A stretch of 64,000 nucleotides of DNA from Agarophyton chilense (lineage: Eukaryota > Rhodophyta > Florideophyceae > Gracilariales > Gracilariaceae): positions 62,001 to 126,000 of the forward strand of contig JARGXX010000027.1 in NCBI GenBank assembly GCA_030374765.1, given 5' to 3'. Of this stretch, positions 24,954 through 60,052 are shown in pieces. The translations under genes were made by a program, and so were the position numbers. The notes below the pieces were generated by a model. It had not been told where the DNA came from. It saw nothing but the letters and a program-made list of their open reading frames with translations, and ran no database searches. How positions within the stretch are numbered: position 1 is the first letter of the stretch; each line of letters starts with the position of its first letter.

Positions 24954-27900
24954 TTATACATTCATGTAAAGAATTGCGTTTGACAATGTCGCAGATCCGG
25001 CAGAAGTGTTAACCACCACGTCCTTCAGACCAGCAGACGAGGATGGAACTTTGCATATAATTTCCTTATCGGAACTCGTAGAGACAGGGCATGGTGAACC
25101 CGCAATTGTCACTGATGGGCTCGCACCGAAGTTCTGGCCACCTATCACGACAGACGTTCCACCTGCTTTGCCATGACGCCATGGCACAGCGTTGGCAATG
25201 TATATTCCTCCCTTCGTACTCACTTTAGGTCGTAAAACAAATACTCTCTTCTCTCTGAGCATAGGGAAGATAAGATCGCCGTGGGCATTCTCAATGAAAG
25301 CAGTTCCTCCACCTGAGGCAAGGCCGTCTGGACCACTGGTTTTCGAGCCACCATTGACACCCATCCGATAGATAGTACCACCTTTGTGAGTCGACATGAT
25401 AATGTCACCTCGCAAGGCCCCGCAAAAGTGATCACTGCGATATTCTCCAATTCCAGTAACCGAGCTTTTCACCGTTGCCATTGCCTGCTTGTAAATAGAT
25501 GGGGCCGGTTTGTCATCAGCAGTCTTGTGGTCGAAAGGATCAATCCAAGCACATTGACTGCCTCCACGTTGGATGTTTGGATGGCCATACCAACTTCCCT
25601 GTGTAAGATGAACGACCTTGTCGGGTCTACCGATAGAAAACGGAAAACTAGCACAGCCATGTTGAACCATTCCAGGCCAAGTAGTATCTGCAAACATGTC
25701 GTAGGATTCTGCTGCTGCTTCATCGTAGTCGGAGCAAGTGGTTGAGGTGTCACCAAAGTCGCAGTTGGGTCCCTGATCCACACCGTATATGTTCCCACTC
25801 CCTGCCATTGCCATTCCAAAGAGATTACGGAGGCCAGGGCTGTAAATGCTGACATCTCCAGAAATTTGTTGAGACAGCCGAGGCACGTCGGGGTTCGAGT
25901 ACTGGATGTTACCATCGAACTGCCCACCCTTACTGAGTTTCGCAACAACTAACGCAGCTGACAACGGATTTTCCCAGAAGTTACCAAGTTTGTACTGTGG
26001 CAGCCCTGCGTTTGTGAACCCACCCACGGCGATGAGCAGATCGCCTGACTGGGTGAACAGGACTTGATTCACACCGTGATCATGATTCGATACAGGCAAG
26101 CCAGTCACAATGCGTTGATCATATACGAGACAAACCTTCGCGTCTCCAGGGTCACTTCCTTTCTTCAAGCGATCAATAGCGCCATTTCTCCAAGCTCCTT
26201 TGTTCGAGAGGTCAACACGATTCCTATCGTACCAATACAAGGTACTGGTACTGACATATGGTTTTAAGGTTGCGTCCCTCGGATCAAACGTTATGCCAAG
26301 AATGTCACGCTGAGACGGGAAATTTCCTTTCTTGAAGTTGTTGTCAAAGATTGACTTCGAGTAACAGTGTGAATTAACAGTCAATGAAACCGGGTCGTAA
26401 CCTAGTACTTGAACAGTGGCCCCAAGTGTGCCCATGTAAAGCTTTCCGTCTCCTCCAATGGTTACGCACGTTGGAAGCTCTAAAAAGTCAACAGCTCCGC
26501 CACTCGATGTCTTCATGTCCACGGAGTCGAAACCAATCGAGTCACATGTGCTACCGTATGAGAATTCAAGAGAATTGCTTGGCAGACCCCCTCCGGAGGT
26601 TACAGAAACCTGGGCGATGGAAGAAGACCCTGAAGGAGGAGAAGTCACAAAGAATTGCTCGGAATTGATGGTACCACCGGGGGTCACTGCAGTTCCACCG
26701 AATGATACAGTCAGTGGCTGGAAGAGACCATAGCCCGTCACCTTCACTGAGGTTCCGCCAGAGTCGGGACCGTCCGAAGGCGTTAAACCCGCTAAGATAG
26801 GCTTCACAGCTTTTTGGTCGTAGAAGACCTTGGACGCAGCCGGTACTGATCCACTGACCTTGAATTGTACTGCCGCTGTGGCACTCGGTGCGGTACGTTC
26901 AAATATTATCTCGAGAGCAAGCAATCCAACCGCAAGTTCAGTTGTAGTTGAAGCCATACCGTCTGTATCCAGCAGGAGATCTTCACCCTTGTAGACGCGA
27001 GCCGTCCCACCACCAGCACTGACGGAAACCGGCGCCTCTTCTACGGCAGCATCAATCTCAAGGAAGAAGAAGCAGCGTGCCACATACTGTCCGCCATTGA
27101 ACGAGAAGCTAGGGAATCCAAGATTGGGCGTGGATGAAATAGCTGAAAACTGTGGGAACCCAAGAGGGTCACCACCCATGACCATCGATAGCCCGTTGTA
27201 GTAGTAGCAGTACATACCTTGTTGAATGGAACCAGTAACTGTAACTGTTGTCTCAGCTTCATCAGTGGTGCACGAATTGTCGACAACAGCAAGCTTTAAG
27301 CGAGTAGTGCCAAGTGGGAATGTATACGTAAACGCAACATCCTTGGACAGGACTTCACCAGTTTCCACCAAGGTCCATGTGTACTCAGTGATATCCCCAA
27401 TAATGTTGTTTGCGTTATCAAAGAAATGGGAGTGACTACCTGAGCCGTCAATCCGGACTGTCTGGAATCCGTCACCATCGCTGTCAACATAAGACTTGGG
27501 AGAATTTGCATTGATTTGTGGAGGGTAGGCACCTGGGACAGCGTGAGCCGCATGGTCCTCACCGTCTGCCAGTCCTCCTTGACTTGAAGCTGGAATACAT
27601 CCATTCGGCTTCGGGGAAACACTAATATAACTCACGATTGCAGCACCGACAATGGCCTCGAATCGAATAGTAATGGGTTCAGTGATCACAGAGCCAACTG
27701 ACGAAGACACCTTTTCCTCAAGACCCTTAAAGCACCCCACAGTGTCATAGATATCCAAACTTTCAATCTGGATCTCACCACTGACGTATATGTTGAACAC
27801 ACGCTTGCCAGGTTCTGAGCAAAAGCCATTAGTATATTCGGCGAAACCAAGGGTTATGTCATATGCTCCGGGCTGGAGATCGAAGGAATATGTGAAATCT

Positions 27901-29081
27901 GTTCCGCTTCGTCCAGTTTGGAAAGCTCCACCCGAAATAGAAGTCGTTCCAGAGATGGAGCTAGACGAAGAGTACTTGGTAGTGCCAGCCACGGCTGGGT
28001 CTCCGTTTGAGCCAACGTCGATTAAAATACTGCTGGCAACTGCAGGAGCAGGGCTTGAGGAAGGGCTCGGACTCGGCGGTAAAGCAGAAGCAGAGGATGA
28101 CGGAGAAGGAATAGGTGCGCTCGACTGAGAGGCAGAGGCAGAGGGTAAGGGCACAGTGGATGATGATGATGACGGAGAAGGAATAGGTGCGCTTGATTGG
28201 GAGGCAGAAGCCGAGGGCAAGGGCACTGCGGATGATGACGATGAAGGAGAAGGAATAGGTGCGCTCGACTGAGAGGCAGAAGCAGAGGGTAAAGGCACCG
28301 TGGATGATGACGATGATGGGGAAGGAACAGTTGCGCTCGACTGAGAGGCAGAAGCAGAGGGTAAGGGCACCGTGGATGATGACGGTGATGGGAGGACTGG
28401 CGCACTTGAAGTTGAGGGTGAAGGCAAGGGAACTGATGATGATGACGCAGAGGGGGATAGAGCAACCGGTGCAGTAGAAGCGGACGCCGAGGGTGAGGGC
28501 ATCACAGCCGCACTTGATGCAGACGCAGAAGGCGTAGGCACGACGACCACAGGAGTTGGAGCAGAGCCTGCGACAGCGACAACATCAGCTGTAGCGAGCA
28601 TAGGAGGCCCCTGTCCCTGTTTGAGCTCAATTAAAAGTTGTCCATCGTCAAGCACATCAACTTCTTCGGACAGCTGATACGGAACATCACAACCTACGGT
28701 AGCGGCGACATTGATGTCATCAGCAACAGTCACACCGTTGACTACTGCGGTGAACAGGCGGGGGCTGCTCAATGTTTGACAAAAGCTGGGCAACAATTCT
28801 GCAAAACCCAATGTGACCGTGTATCTTCCGGGTGCGACCTCAGCTGTATAGCTGAAGTCACCGTTGCGGGTTGCATAAGAGCGAAACTGGGCAGCAACGG
28901 TAGAAGAGGGAATAGATCTAACTCCGGCGCCTGGCGAGAGTTTTGTTATGTCAATCGCCGTGTAGGGGGTCGGAAGTGGCATAAACGAGCGAGCAAATGC
29001 CAAGTGAAGCTCGGAAGGCTGAGCACTCGTGAGCGATATGCATATCGCCAACACGGTGCATAAAAGACTAGCGGCGCGCAT
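24954..29081 (-). CDS. giant secreted malectin / IPT / beta-propeller protein
   Basis: 1375 aa with signal peptide (MRAASLLCTVLAICISLTSA). Order of parts: malectin-like domain (about 25-165; TVTLGFAELLPSFC); Ser/Pro linker (about 175-345) with near-exact 24-residue repeats; second malectin-like domain (about 348-490; DITLGFAEY); a PKD-like beta domain (about 520-610); a Cys-containing beta region; an IPT/TIG domain (about 765-850; GGTSVKVTGYGL); a six-bladed propeller resembling glucose/sorbosone dehydrogenases (about 855-1270; NHDHGVNQVLFTQSGDLLIAVGG, SPGLRNLFGMA); and a C-terminal IPT (about 1285-1375). Malectin domains bind sugars, so an extracellular carbohydrate-binding or oxidising enzyme in the matrix is inferred. 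Cofactor use cannot be read from sequence. Confidence 0.88.
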   Translation of the reverse strand: MRAASLLCTVLAICISLTSAQPSELHLAFARSFMPLPTPYTAIDITKLSPGAGVRSIPSSTVAAQFRSYATRNGDFSYTAEVAPGRYTVTLGFAELLPSFCQTLSSPRLFTAVVNGVTVADDINVAATVGCDVPYQLSEEVDVLDDGQLLIELKQGQGPPMLATADVVAVAGSAPTPVVVVPTPSASASSAAVMPSPSASASTAPVALSPSASSSSVPLPSPSTSSAPVLPSPSSSTVPLPSASASQSSATVPSPSSSSSTVPLPSASASQSSAPIPSPSSSSSAVPLPSASASQSSAPIPSPSSSSSTVPLPSASASQSSAPIPSPSSSASALPPSPSPSSSPAPAVASSILIDVGSNGDPAVAGTTKYSSSSSISGTTSISGGAFQTGRSGTDFTYSFDLQPGAYDITLGFAEYTNGFCSEPGKRVFNIYVSGEIQIESLDIYDTVGCFKGLEEKVSSSVGSVITEPITIRFEAIVGAAIVSYISVSPKPNGCIPASSQGGLADGEDHAAHAVPGAYPPQINANSPKSYVDSDGDGFQTVRIDGSGSHSHFFDNANNIIGDITEYTWTLVETGEVLSKDVAFTYTFPLGTTRLKLAVVDNSCTTDEAETTVTVTGSIQQGMYCYYYNGLSMVMGGDPLGFPQFSAISSTPNLGFPSFSFNGGQYVARCFFFLEIDAAVEEAPVSVSAGGGTARVYKGEDLLLDTDGMASTTTELAVGLLALEIIFERTAPSATAAVQFKVSGSVPAASKVFYDQKAVKPILAGLTPSDGPDSGGTSVKVTGYGLFQPLTVSFGGTAVTPGGTINSEQFFVTSPPSGSSSIAQVSVTSGGGLPSNSLEFSYGSTCDSIGFDSVDMKTSSGGAVDFLELPTCVTIGGDGKLYMGTLGATVQVLGYDPVSLTVNSHCYSKSIFDNNFKKGNFPSQRDILGITFDPRDATLKPYVSTSTLYWYDRNRVDLSNKGAWRNGAIDRLKKGSDPGDAKVCLVYDQRIVTGLPVSNHDHGVNQVLFTQSGDLLIAVGGFTNAGLPQYKLGNFWENPLSAALVVAKLSKGGQFDGNIQYSNPDVPRLSQQISGDVSIYSPGLRNLFGMAMAGSGNIYGVDQGPNCDFGDTSTTCSDYDEAAAESYDMFADTTWPGMVQHGCASFPFSIGRPDKVVHLTQGSWYGHPNIQRGGSQCAWIDPFDHKTADDKPAPSIYKQAMATVKSSVTGIGEYRSDHFCGALRGDIIMSTHKGGTIYRMGVNGGSKTSGPDGLASGGGTAFIENAHGDLIFPMLREKRVFVLRPKVSTKGGIYIANAVPWRHGKAGGTSVVIGGQNFGASPSVTIAGSPCPVSTSSDKEIICKVPSSSAGLKDVVVNTSAGSATLSNAILYMNV
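28085..28400. repeat. 72-bp coding tandem repeat in the malectin gene
   Basis: Encodes repeats of SSAPIPSPSSSSS plus VPLPSASASQ, 24 residues per unit. About three full copies and partial flanking ones are nearly identical at DNA level, so recent unequal exchange is likely. Confidence 0.8.
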
Positions 29082-33730: not shown

Positions 33731-35019
33731 ATGTATTGCTTCGTTCCCACCGCTTCTCGTTTCACGCCTCTGCAGGGCCGTGTTTTGCGCCATGGCTCGA
33801 ATCGCACAGCGCGTCGACCATTATGGGTCGGGCCAGTGGCGGAGCGTCAGGTTGCAGCCCCTCAAACAACGCCCACAACTCCCACGATAGACAAAAATCT
33901 TCCGTCAAAACGTATATGCGTGTTCTCCGACGGAAGCTGGAATTCGTAAGTGCTTGTTGATATGGGCGCGGATGGCGGGGGAAGTTGTGTGCGAAAGCTA
34001 ACAGTGTCATGTGTTTCGCGAACGCAAGTCCTGACATAGAGACTCTGACCAATGTTTCTTACCTCGCACAGGCCGTTCAGTATGCGGGTCCAAGCGGAGT
34101 GCCACAGTTGGTGTTCTACGACCAAGGGGTGGGAACAGAAGGTGATGCGCTCGACAAGATTAAAGGCGGGGCGATGGGAGTGGGTATCGACCTGAACATC
34201 AAGCAGCTGTACACGTTCCTCGTGATGAACTATGTAGAGGGGGATGAGATTTACCTGTTTGGGTTTTCTCGCGGCGCATATACGGTGCGCTCTCTTGCAG
34301 GGATGATGTTCGAATCCGGTTTGCTGTACCGAAACAAACTGGACTTTGTGACAGAGGCGTACACGTTGTACCGAGAAAATATAGATGTGGAATCTGAACG
34401 CGCTAAAGAATTTCGGGCCGAGCACGCACGTCGTGTGCCAATCACCGCGCTGGTGTGCTTCGACACGGTAGGGGCGTTGGGAGTTCCGTCATACGCGCCA
34501 TTTCCGTTTTCGCTGTTCTCTCGAAATGAAAAGTACGCGTTTCACGACACGACGCTTTCCGAACTGGTGAACAATGCGATTCACGTGGTGTCCATCGACG
34601 AGGAGATGGTTCCGTTCGAGCCGACGCTGATGTCGCACAACCCCAAGGTTGGGCCGTCGCAACTGACGCAGGTGTACATGCCGGGTCGGCACGGGGGCAT
34701 TGGAGGTGGGAACAAGCAGGCGGAACCGCTGGCTAGAAACGCGCTCAAGTTTGTGGTGGATGAGATGAAGCGAAGGGGGCTTGCGTTGGATGTGGACTGC
34801 AGTGTGGTGCCCGAGGAGTACGTGCTGGATTGCATGCCCAAGGAGCGCGCTTCGAGACTGTCTCTGTTTGGTTTGGTGGGACTGACGATGGGCATGCGAA
34901 GCCGCAAAATCGACTCGTTGGATAGCCTGCACGAGTGCGTTCCGAAGATGTACCGCACACTCAAGTGGCGTCCTGGCGCGCTGGAGCCGTTCAAGGAGCA
35001 GCTGCTCGGCGATGGGTGA
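33731..35019 (+). CDS. DUF2235 alpha/beta-hydrolase, two exons
   Basis: Exons 33731-33945 and 34029-35019 (401 aa). The 83-bp intron has donor GTAAGT, branch-like CTAAC (33998-34002) and acceptor CAAG. Splicing joins CVFSDGSWN to SPDIETLTNVSYLAQAV, restoring the conserved N-terminal DGTWN block of the family. The nucleophile elbow is GFSRGAYTVRSLAG; YDQGVGTEG, VCFDTVGALGVP and MPGRHGGIGGG are further DUF2235 motifs. The family includes fungal and bacterial proteins and type VI secretion phospholipase effectors (Tle1), so a lipase is plausible but unproven. The ATG at 33731 is the first in frame; a Ser/Arg-rich N-terminus of about 65 residues could be a targeting sequence. Confidence 0.85.
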
Positions 35020-58521: not shown

Positions 58522-58968
58522 TCAGCGCTCTCGCAGCACCCTCCGCCGCATCTCCCCGAAAAGCACCCCACCCCTCAACCTCAGCGCCTGCGCCTCGCGA
58601 ACAAGCCTCTCCCCCACCTTCTTCCCTACGCTCAAAGCGCGCTCCGCCGCCGCCCGTCGATCAAAGCCGGCAACGTACCGCTCAAGTCTCGCCAGCCGTG
58701 GCGTGTAGAAAAAGCTCACCAAGCGCCCCCTCGTAAGATGCCCCGAACCCATCGCCGCCACACCGCCCGCCCCGAACCCCACCCCGCAGTACGCGCCCAG
58801 CCCGAATCCAGCGCCGAACAGCACGCGTGCGTTGGCCGCCACGCCCAGTCCGAAGAACGCGCCGGCGCCGCATCCCACCCCAAATGCCCACCCCGTCCCG
58901 CCGAGCAGAAGCATCTTTGGTGGCGGCGGTAGTGCATATTCGCACTGCATTGCCATTGCGCGCCTCAT
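58522..58968 (-). CDS. glycine-rich membrane protein, cadmium-induced AS8-like
   Basis: 148 aa. Residues 20-75 form an uninterrupted Gly/Ala/Phe-rich hydrophobic stretch (GTGWAFGVGCGAGAFFGLGV, FGAGFGLGAYCGVGFGAGG) with GxGxG-type helix-packing spacing. A basic, helical C-terminus follows (ERYVAGFDRRAAAERALSVG). The pattern resembles the small plant and algal membrane proteins annotated as cadmium-induced protein AS8; function unknown in all. The match rests on composition and motif order, so it is moderate. Two more ATGs lie within the first seven codons. Confidence 0.6.
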   Translation of the reverse strand: MRRAMAMQCEYALPPPPKMLLLGGTGWAFGVGCGAGAFFGLGVAANARVLFGAGFGLGAYCGVGFGAGGVAAMGSGHLTRGRLVSFFYTPRLARLERYVAGFDRRAAAERALSVGKKVGERLVREAQALRLRGGVLFGEMRRRVLRER

Positions 58969-59317: not shown

Positions 59318-60052
59318 ATGGCTGCTTACTCCATCACCGCCTTCGCTCTTTCACCTTCGCCTCTTGTTCGCTCGCTGCGGCCGTCGAACAACGTCGCATA
59401 CTGCCGCAGCTCCAGCTCCAAAAGAAGCGTACAGTATACTGCCCAATTGCCGCGCAGCGCGGCTCCAGCAACTCCGCCCGTTGCTACAACATCCGTCTCG
59501 CCGAGAGCTAAGCAATTAATCGAACAACAGATACAAAACCCAATATTCGATCCACGCCTTCTGGACAATTCCTTTGGCCCCATGTTTTCCGACTTGCAGG
59601 CTCAATCCCCGCCAGCTTTTGTGCGCTCTTCGCACGTCCCAGATACCACGTCACTAGCCCACCGCTTCGCAATTGACACCATCGCCGAACACTCGGAGGA
59701 AGCCATCGAAGCAGCGCGCGCCTATATATTGCGCGTCTATCCGCGCATCGATCAGCCGGGTGGAGCTCTCTGGCCATCTCAGAGAGCCGTCGCTTGTTGG
59801 CGCGATCTTTCCGCCTTTGCCCGTGTAGCAGCATACTTGGCAATTTGTGAAAATGGTCTGTCCACTCGCGGCATGCACATCATGCAGCAGGTATATTATG
59901 AGATGAATGTCCCTTTGGATGCGGTACGAACCGGTGTGCATTGTATTCGGGAACAACTTGCTGACCGTGCCGCGTACAACAATGATTCAGAGGCCTCAAA
60001 AATTGTGCGAACTGCCTTTGACCAGTTACTCGGCTACCTCTCTACTTTCTAA
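59318..60052 (+). CDS. nuclear-encoded phycobiliprotein-like (phycobilisome superfamily) protein
   Basis: 244 aa from the ATG at 59318 (CACAATGG). Residues 1-60 are Ser, Pro, Arg and Ala-rich without acidic residues, a probable plastid transit peptide. From about 113 the phycobilisome globin pattern is clear: HRFAIDTIAEHSEEAIEAAR, YPRIDQPGGALWPSQRAVAC (helix B-E region), then WRDLSAFARVAAYLAICENG and the helix F-G part MNVPLDAVRTGVHCIREQLADRAA, ending LLGYLSTF. Cys 160 with R162 and D163 corresponds to the bilin-binding Cys 84-x-R-D of phycocyanin and allophycocyanin. Red algal phycobiliprotein alpha/beta genes are plastid-encoded, so a nuclear copy is unusual. It could bind a bilin, act in assembly, or belong to a side family of bilin-related globins. 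Confidence 0.75.
   Translation: MAAYSITAFALSPSPLVRSLRPSNNVAYCRSSSSKRSVQYTAQLPRSAAPATPPVATTSVSPRAKQLIEQQIQNPIFDPRLLDNSFGPMFSDLQAQSPPAFVRSSHVPDTTSLAHRFAIDTIAEHSEEAIEAARAYILRVYPRIDQPGGALWPSQRAVACWRDLSAFARVAAYLAICENGLSTRGMHIMQQVYYEMNVPLDAVRTGVHCIREQLADRAAYNNDSEASKIVRTAFDQLLGYLSTF

Follow-up and report, generated by a model that had tools for sequence, protein, structure and literature searches.

A nuclear gene of the red alga Agarophyton chilense very probably encodes a member of the AplA (allophycocyanin-like) family, which in cyanobacteria follows phycoerythrobilin synthesis

Nuclear-encoded, plastid-targeted proteins of the PBS family are a kind already known. One such protein has been described from P. 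purpureum, Erythrolobus, Rhodosorus and cryptophytes, and was tied to the cd12130 allophycocyanin (APC)-like globins, with APC-related functions suggested (Lee et al. 2019, PMC6811547). In the portions of that report available, the protein is recorded only from Proteorhodophytina and cryptophytes, being absent on the Griffithsia side, and nuclear copies of antenna genes are described in Galdieria (PMC6811547). Both the PBS protein and the Galdieria copies run counter to the statement in the initial annotation of the locus studied here that only linker-type subunits are nuclear (PMC6811547). The same annotation invoked bilin-biosynthesis-associated globins (BBAGs) as a precedent, which is apt as an analogy: BBAGs are encoded near bilin reductases, like AplA proteins, and bind bilins without lyases, but they go with pre-PcyA or V4R/Fe-S clusters (PMC10151467), whereas AplA goes with PebA/PebB and phycoerythrin. 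The available text of the BBAG paper mentions neither Apl nor AplA nor 'allophycocyanin-like' (PMC10151467). The protein analysed here resembles that of Lee et al. in being nuclear-encoded and probably plastid-targeted, in falling outside the known subunit families and in being nearest to cyanobacterial APC-like globins, a likeness of description, not of alignment.

The gene lies in a 64,000-nucleotide stretch of A. chilense DNA (hereafter, the window), which spans positions C27:62001-126000 of contig JARGXX010000027.1 (C27). Its open reading frame encodes a protein of 244 aa, P0001, with the following features (window coordinates; evidence in brackets):

59318..60052, + strand: whole coding sequence, intronless as read, TAA stop included (ORF, Pfam, codon score)
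59318..59491, + strand: putative plastid transit peptide, residues 1-58 (composition; AplA motif starts directly after)
59492..59521, + strand: probable AplA N-terminal motif SVSPRAKQLI (cyanobacterial xLSxRAKQLI), residues 59-68 (matrix score; antenna rows gapped here)
59669..60028, + strand: phycobilisome/globin domain PF00502, residues 118-237 (E 1.1e-17, 64.9 bits)
59795..59806, + strand: bilin site Cys160-Trp161-Arg162-Asp163 (Trp161 AplA-type; alignment rows)

No upstream in-frame ATG was found for this ORF. Over its whole length, the codon score of the P0001 frame, calculated against a reference of nine ORFs from the window, is 0.11, compared to -0.09 to -0.20 for the other five frames; over the leader alone (residues 1-58), the score does not discriminate among frames. 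The assembly comprises 79.8 Mb in 135 contigs, and C27 (1.21 Mb) carries genes of nuclear type around P0001, including those for a cyclin, an ABC1 kinase, a ThiF-family protein and a malectin protein (Pfam). Across the assembly, PF00502 has 15 matches, namely P0001 on C27 and 14 on contig C39. Eight of the latter, named from their sequences, are ApcA, ApcB, ApcD, ApcF, CpcA, CpcB, CpeA and CpeB, and the remaining six correspond to ApcE fragments or to repeats at the overlapping contig end. The P0001 gene is real and sited in the nucleus, as a single copy with its bilin site kept, and the antenna genes reside on the plastid contig C39. Organellar or bacterial DNA is ruled out by the 1.21-Mb nuclear contig and the ordinary nuclear neighbours. 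Cryptophyte contamination is unlikely on inspection, given that the leader has no obvious signal-peptide part and that the plastid in the assembly is a phycobilisome-bearing one.

Several other features were recorded alongside. The sequence of C39 (227,691 bases) recurs with an offset of 185,684 bases, which would fit a circular molecule of this length whose reading continued beyond the starting point. Elsewhere in the window, positions 34009-35016 (+) hold an alpha/beta-hydrolase-type gene on the nuclear contig with the PF09994 domain (Tle1-like phospholipase catalytic domain, E 7e-62), positions 24954-29078 (-) encode a 1374-aa, probably cell-surface protein that combines malectin and IPT/TIG domains with repeats rich in Pro and Ser, and a Gly-rich ORF of 147 aa without a Pfam match (58522-58965, -) is divergent to the globin gene.

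PF00502, with a cut-off of 22.2 bits, is the sole Pfam family in P0001, and the Pfam scan detected no signalling domain. The match begins at position 34 of the 155 profile positions, so that the N-terminal helical hairpin of P0001 is not recognisably conserved. At the bilin site, the Cys, Arg and Asp are present in all 35 AplA rows and all 40 antenna rows of our alignment, whereas a Trp directly after the bilin Cys is seen in every one of the 35 AplA rows but not in a single antenna row; P0001 has Trp161. Residues 1-68 of P0001 include no Asp or Glu, eight Lys/Arg and 18 Ser/Thr. Because of this composition and because the AplA-like part begins at residue 59, the leader, some 58 residues long, is probably a transit peptide of the primary-plastid type, with import into the plastid presumed. 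The initial annotation had given the ORF with its coordinates and Cys160, Arg162 and Asp163, all of which stand as read from the translation; its nuclear location, transit-like leader and retained bilin site were likewise corroborated, and the PF00502 profile search that it recommended is significant. Its 'full' globin pattern holds for residues 118-237 but not for the N-terminal hairpin.

Queried against seven cyanobacterial genomes, P0001 recovered one family protein of ~190 aa in five of them (55-67 bits), with other phycobiliproteins at 34 bits or less. We built profile A2 from family proteins, including P0001, and ran it over 292 cyanobacterial genomes: the match scored at least 171 bits in 25 of them, 120-138 bits in 12 and 111 bits in one, followed by matches at 106 bits or less; the cut-offs between AplA and APC were chosen after viewing this score list, and matches at or below 106 bits were taken as antenna proteins, without individual checks. 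The 111-bit candidate (L181 in genome G183) was ApcD-like in the tree and was dropped, and a partial match in G294 (95.9 bits) was left uncounted. The 12 genomes of the 120-138-bit class, here called marine, are small (2.1-2.9 Mb), which puts them in the size range of marine Synechococcus. All eight marine loci examined (from eight of the 12 genomes) have a linker gene and a pentapeptide gene no more than 5 kb from the AplA gene, which is directly ahead of the linker in seven. In L173 and L174, the order is unk4-like gene, AplA gene, CpcG-like linker, pentapeptide gene, where the label 'unk4-like' rests on the position of a gene without a Pfam match; the same order has been published for aplA of marine Synechococcus (PMC2246261). 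Another profile, A3, matched at least 113 proteins of the protein database at E 1e-25 or better among 8000 candidates sharing most words. These matches include P0001, by construction, and P0004, which is annotated 'Allophycocyanin-like protein'. Taken together, the published gene order found at L173/L174 and the name of P0004 identify the cyanobacterial family as AplA. No phage carriage of AplA was found in viral_contigs (one pattern) or in phage records (query P0058).

To which side P0001 itself belongs was assessed with models from which it was excluded. The AplA model (35 rows) gives it 96.9 bits, as opposed to 48.2 bits from the best antenna model (beta APC) and 45.9 bits from the all-antenna model. 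Given that ApcD and ApcA of the alga match this AplA score (98.5 and 93.9 bits, respectively), the evidence lies in the contrast between AplA and antenna models rather than in the AplA score itself: ApcD and ApcA, which contributed rows to the all-antenna model, attain 194 and 217 bits on it, and for each of the eight plastid antenna proteins, all of which are likewise among the rows from which the antenna models were built, the all-antenna score exceeds the AplA score. On the model of its own group, in which it is a row, each plastid antenna member attains 297-348 bits; P0001 belongs by score to none of the eight antenna groups, with no value above 48.2 bits. Furthermore, P0001 has 10 of the 17 AplA-diagnostic residues, two of them in the N-terminal motif, and none of the three antenna-diagnostic ones. 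The motif matrix, for which 11 columns were picked from an alignment including P0001 but filled from the 35 AplA rows without it, gives a score of 14.86 with the best place at residue 59; none of 2000 shuffles scored as high, the top one reaching 14.8.

In a maximum-likelihood tree of 77 rows obtained by a quick search, with L172, L176, L177 and L180 added by hand and L150 left out because only ATG starts were accepted, P0001 groups with the 35 AplA rows (SH-aLRT 100) on an end branch of 2.39, with identity of at most 30% (tree and alignment). Its identity to cyanobacterial AplA is 21-30% in the A3 alignment and 34% in one local match. Placing P0001 with the antenna side as a whole is not rejected by the AU test (p 0.51), nor is a position within beta APC (p 0.09), alpha APC (p 0.13) or alpha PC/PE (p 0.17); the log-likelihood cost of placements within antenna clades is 16.7-24.5. 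It is the sequence signatures that carry the assignment, with which the tree agrees, and we conclude that P0001 is very probably a member of the AplA family. That an antenna gene was simply transferred from the plastid is unlikely in view of the model scores, the diagnostic residues and the full plastid set, although such an origin is compatible with the tree taken by itself. The earlier view that P0001 is not simply a moved apcA or cpcA is thus probably borne out by the scores and the missing antenna residues, and that of a non-antenna globin is supported, but the likely family, AplA, had been overlooked; the tree it called for unites P0001 with AplA, with AU p values of 0.09-0.51 for antenna placements.

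P0001 shares with cyanobacterial AplA the CWRD site, the N-terminal motif and the profile scores, and differs in its nuclear gene, leader, long branch and largely lost similarity in the N-terminal hairpin. With the antenna phycobiliproteins (ApcA/B/D/F, CpcA/B, CpeA/B) it has PF00502 and the Cys-x-Arg-Asp site in common, but those are plastid-encoded, and P0001 reaches at most 48 bits on antenna models versus 97 on AplA. When P0001 alone was searched against a 5.8-billion-protein database and genome_contigs, no close relative was found. Its best sequence matches in the PDB are APC-type subunits. Among the best 60 of 171 PDB matches to the A3 model, the top one being ApcD at 116 bits, there was no solved AplA structure; going by these 60, the AplA family seems to be unrepresented among the solved phycobilisome chains.

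The position of the host alga bears on the range of the family. In a tree of the first 500 aa of ApcE (five rows), the alga groups with Griffithsia and not with Porphyridium (100/99), these being PDB entries that we take to be from the respective algae. Its ApcE is 69.9% identical to that of Griffithsia versus 65.8% for Porphyridium, and its LRC1 (407 versus 368 bits) and ApcD (260 versus 238 bits) are also closer to Griffithsia, whereas CpeB shows the opposite (309 versus 320 bits). Three of the four plastid proteins compared with Griffithsia and Porphyridium thus suggest that the alga is likelier to be on the Griffithsia side than not, and in this the host of P0001 differs from those of the protein of Lee et al. 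Provided that Proteorhodophytina forms a single group, the alga more likely belongs to the Eurhodophytina side and would extend the range of the AplA family.

The genomic distribution of AplA in cyanobacteria is linked to phycoerythrobilin (PEB) synthesis. PebB, identified with model NF009723 at E 1e-60 or better, is present in 43 of the 292 genomes, namely in 33 of the 37 with AplA versus 10 of the 255 without (Fisher p 2.7e-30, kinship ignored). The association persists among the 125 genomes with any A2 match (p 4.6e-17). At the same threshold, AplA occurs without PebB in four of the 37 genomes: G241, G243 and G259 (L167-L169) and G043 (L172). L167-L169 have none of the sought phycoerythrin neighbours and, like L172, could probe a PEB-independent role of AplA. 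For the 28 main loci (25 genomes from the 292-genome search and three from the seven-genome search), each neighbour family received its name from NCBIfam and Pfam scans of a few of its members. At a distance of up to 5 kb from AplA, we identified PebA/PebB at 13 loci, CpeS at 13, CpeT at 10, an NblB-like HEAT protein at 14, linkers at nine, CpeA/CpeB at seven and CpeY/CpeZ at four; 22 of the 28 loci have at least one of the phycoerythrin, lyase, HEAT or linker neighbours sought, and six have none. The corresponding counts for the eight marine loci are zero for PebA/PebB, one each for CpeS and CpeT and eight for linkers. Directly adjoining same-strand genes are found at seven of the 28 loci in all: pebB upstream of AplA at three (gaps 67, -1 and 42), cpeY upstream at two (gaps 45 and 21) and cpeS downstream at two (gaps -17 and 91). 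Overall, the cyanobacterial AplA family follows PEB synthesis, often within phycoerythrin clusters, which is a new observation; the clusters are evidence of association rather than of mechanism, and genomes that are related do not count as independent cases. Two genome papers draw AplA and pebB in one cluster figure, and in the available text of open-licence PMC papers we found none proposing a functional link between the two.

Six plasmid records also match, and the best three (57-59% identity) have AplA in or near phycoerythrin genes, annotated by others. For instance, the plasmid of Rippkaea PCC 8801 (L187) has pebA, pebB and the AplA gene in this order on the same strand; it is the same as locus L158 (G150) and hence not independent of the main loci. 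Phycoerythrin genes and AplA are located together on plasmids in Rippkaea PCC 8801, Pseudanabaena PCC 7367 (L188) and Gloeothece PCC 7424 (L189), one of which is typed as conjugative and one as mobilizable, a possible mobile phycoerythrin module. The NblB-like HEAT gene near AplA in 14 of the 28 loci (L150-L172, L182-L186) may be an unnamed partner. In the alga, two bilin reductase, three CpeS and three CpeT matches (one CpeT partial and with stops) are located off the plastid contig, along with one CpeY-like match at 306 bits, below the model cut-off of 600.

The linkage of AplA to PEB genes suggests that AplA handles the PebB product, and because P0001 and every one of the 35 AplA rows retain the bilin site, and P0001 has no signalling domain, the holding or hand-over of PEB appears to be the likeliest role. 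Under this mechanism, the gene would presumably have moved into the nucleus from the plastid ancestor, with its product returned to the plastid. P0001 would fold as a phycobiliprotein-type globin, carry one bilin on Cys160 and not be a structural phycobilisome subunit. PebA/PebB would supply the PEB and CpeS/CpeY-type lyases would attach it, and P0001 may take it up or hold it during phycoerythrin assembly, as a buffer, a hand-over protein or a reporter of supply. As a function for AplA and P0001, PEB handling is possible but tentative. The whole reading, that of a nuclear, plastid-imported, non-antenna bilin globin of the AplA family most likely serving the PEB branch, we regard as having slightly less than an even chance.

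Other roles can be envisaged. AplA has been described as a photosensor without a link to the phycobilisome (PMC2246261), and P0001 could accordingly be a light sensor in which the bilin on Cys160 photoconverts or otherwise reports light, signalling its colour or intensity in the plastid. The retention of the bilin site in a single nuclear copy is consistent with such a role, as is the presence of two-component genes (cluster 9) 5-6 kb or nearer to AplA at five of the 28 loci (L154, L156, L183, L185 and L186). Pfam assigned the six cluster-9 proteins analysed, from all of these loci but L185, to histidine kinases and response regulators, and in L156 a MASE1 histidine kinase gene is the divergent neighbour of AplA at a distance of 124 bases. 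These five loci led us to lower our estimate for PEB handling slightly and to raise that for a sensor as slightly. Nevertheless, two-component genes are common in cyanobacteria, so that their proximity may be due to chance, and linkage to PEB synthesis and attachment genes is the commoner one. Considering also that P0001 itself is devoid of a signalling domain and that BBAGs, the analogous globins, were not seen to photoconvert (PMC10151467), a sensor appears somewhat unlikely. An involvement in phycobilisome turnover, whereby the protein would collect bilins from degraded phycobiliproteins together with an NblB-like HEAT protein, is suggested by the 14 loci with such a gene within 5 kb, the nearest copy being on the opposite strand in all 14, and by scores of 84.6, 102.2 and 94.8 bits of three HEAT proteins on the NblB model. 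All three fall well short of the NblB cut-off of 300, so that the HEAT protein could just as well be a partner of lyase type, and genes for synthesis and attachment share the same clusters, which makes turnover improbable, a shade more so than the structural role considered below.

The remaining alternatives place P0001 on the antenna side. A minor phycobilisome subunit or terminal emitter with an APC-related role, moved to the nucleus, would fit the APC-type subunits that head the PDB matches of P0001 and the APC placements left possible by the AU tests, but the plastid already has the APC core genes, the AplA model is ahead of the best antenna model by ~49 bits, and the solved chain closest to the A3 model is ApcD, with no phycobilisome chain apparently being AplA. 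Moreover, the family follows PebB across the 292 genomes, and 88 of the 125 that gave an AplA- or antenna-type match do not have it, all of which renders a structural role improbable. A functionless, decayed antenna gene transferred to the nucleus, with which the high divergence of P0001 and the compatibility of the tree with an antenna origin would agree, is very improbable, considering the intact frame with its coding signal, the preserved invariant residues of the bilin site and the presence of the AplA-specific residues and N-terminal motif.

Extended to the whole family, PEB handling would mean that AplA proteins, from cyanobacteria to the plastids of red algae and cryptophytes, are dedicated PEB carriers which receive the pigment from PebB and either deliver it to CpeS/CpeY-type lyases or keep a buffer of it for them, with the nuclear copy persisting only in PEB-making plastids; in this full form, the proposal is conjectural and more likely wrong than right by a good measure. 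To our knowledge, how bilins are escorted from PebB to the apoproteins is unsettled, and the carrier reading, if true, would fill this gap, that is, the travel of free, reactive bilins from reductase to antenna. The locus described here adds a gene for a non-antenna phycobiliprotein to the nucleus of an alga that is likelier than not to be on the Griffithsia side of red algae, where the family was reported missing, and ties a little-studied branch of the phycobiliproteins to phycoerythrobilin rather than to allophycocyanin, with a job that can be tested directly.
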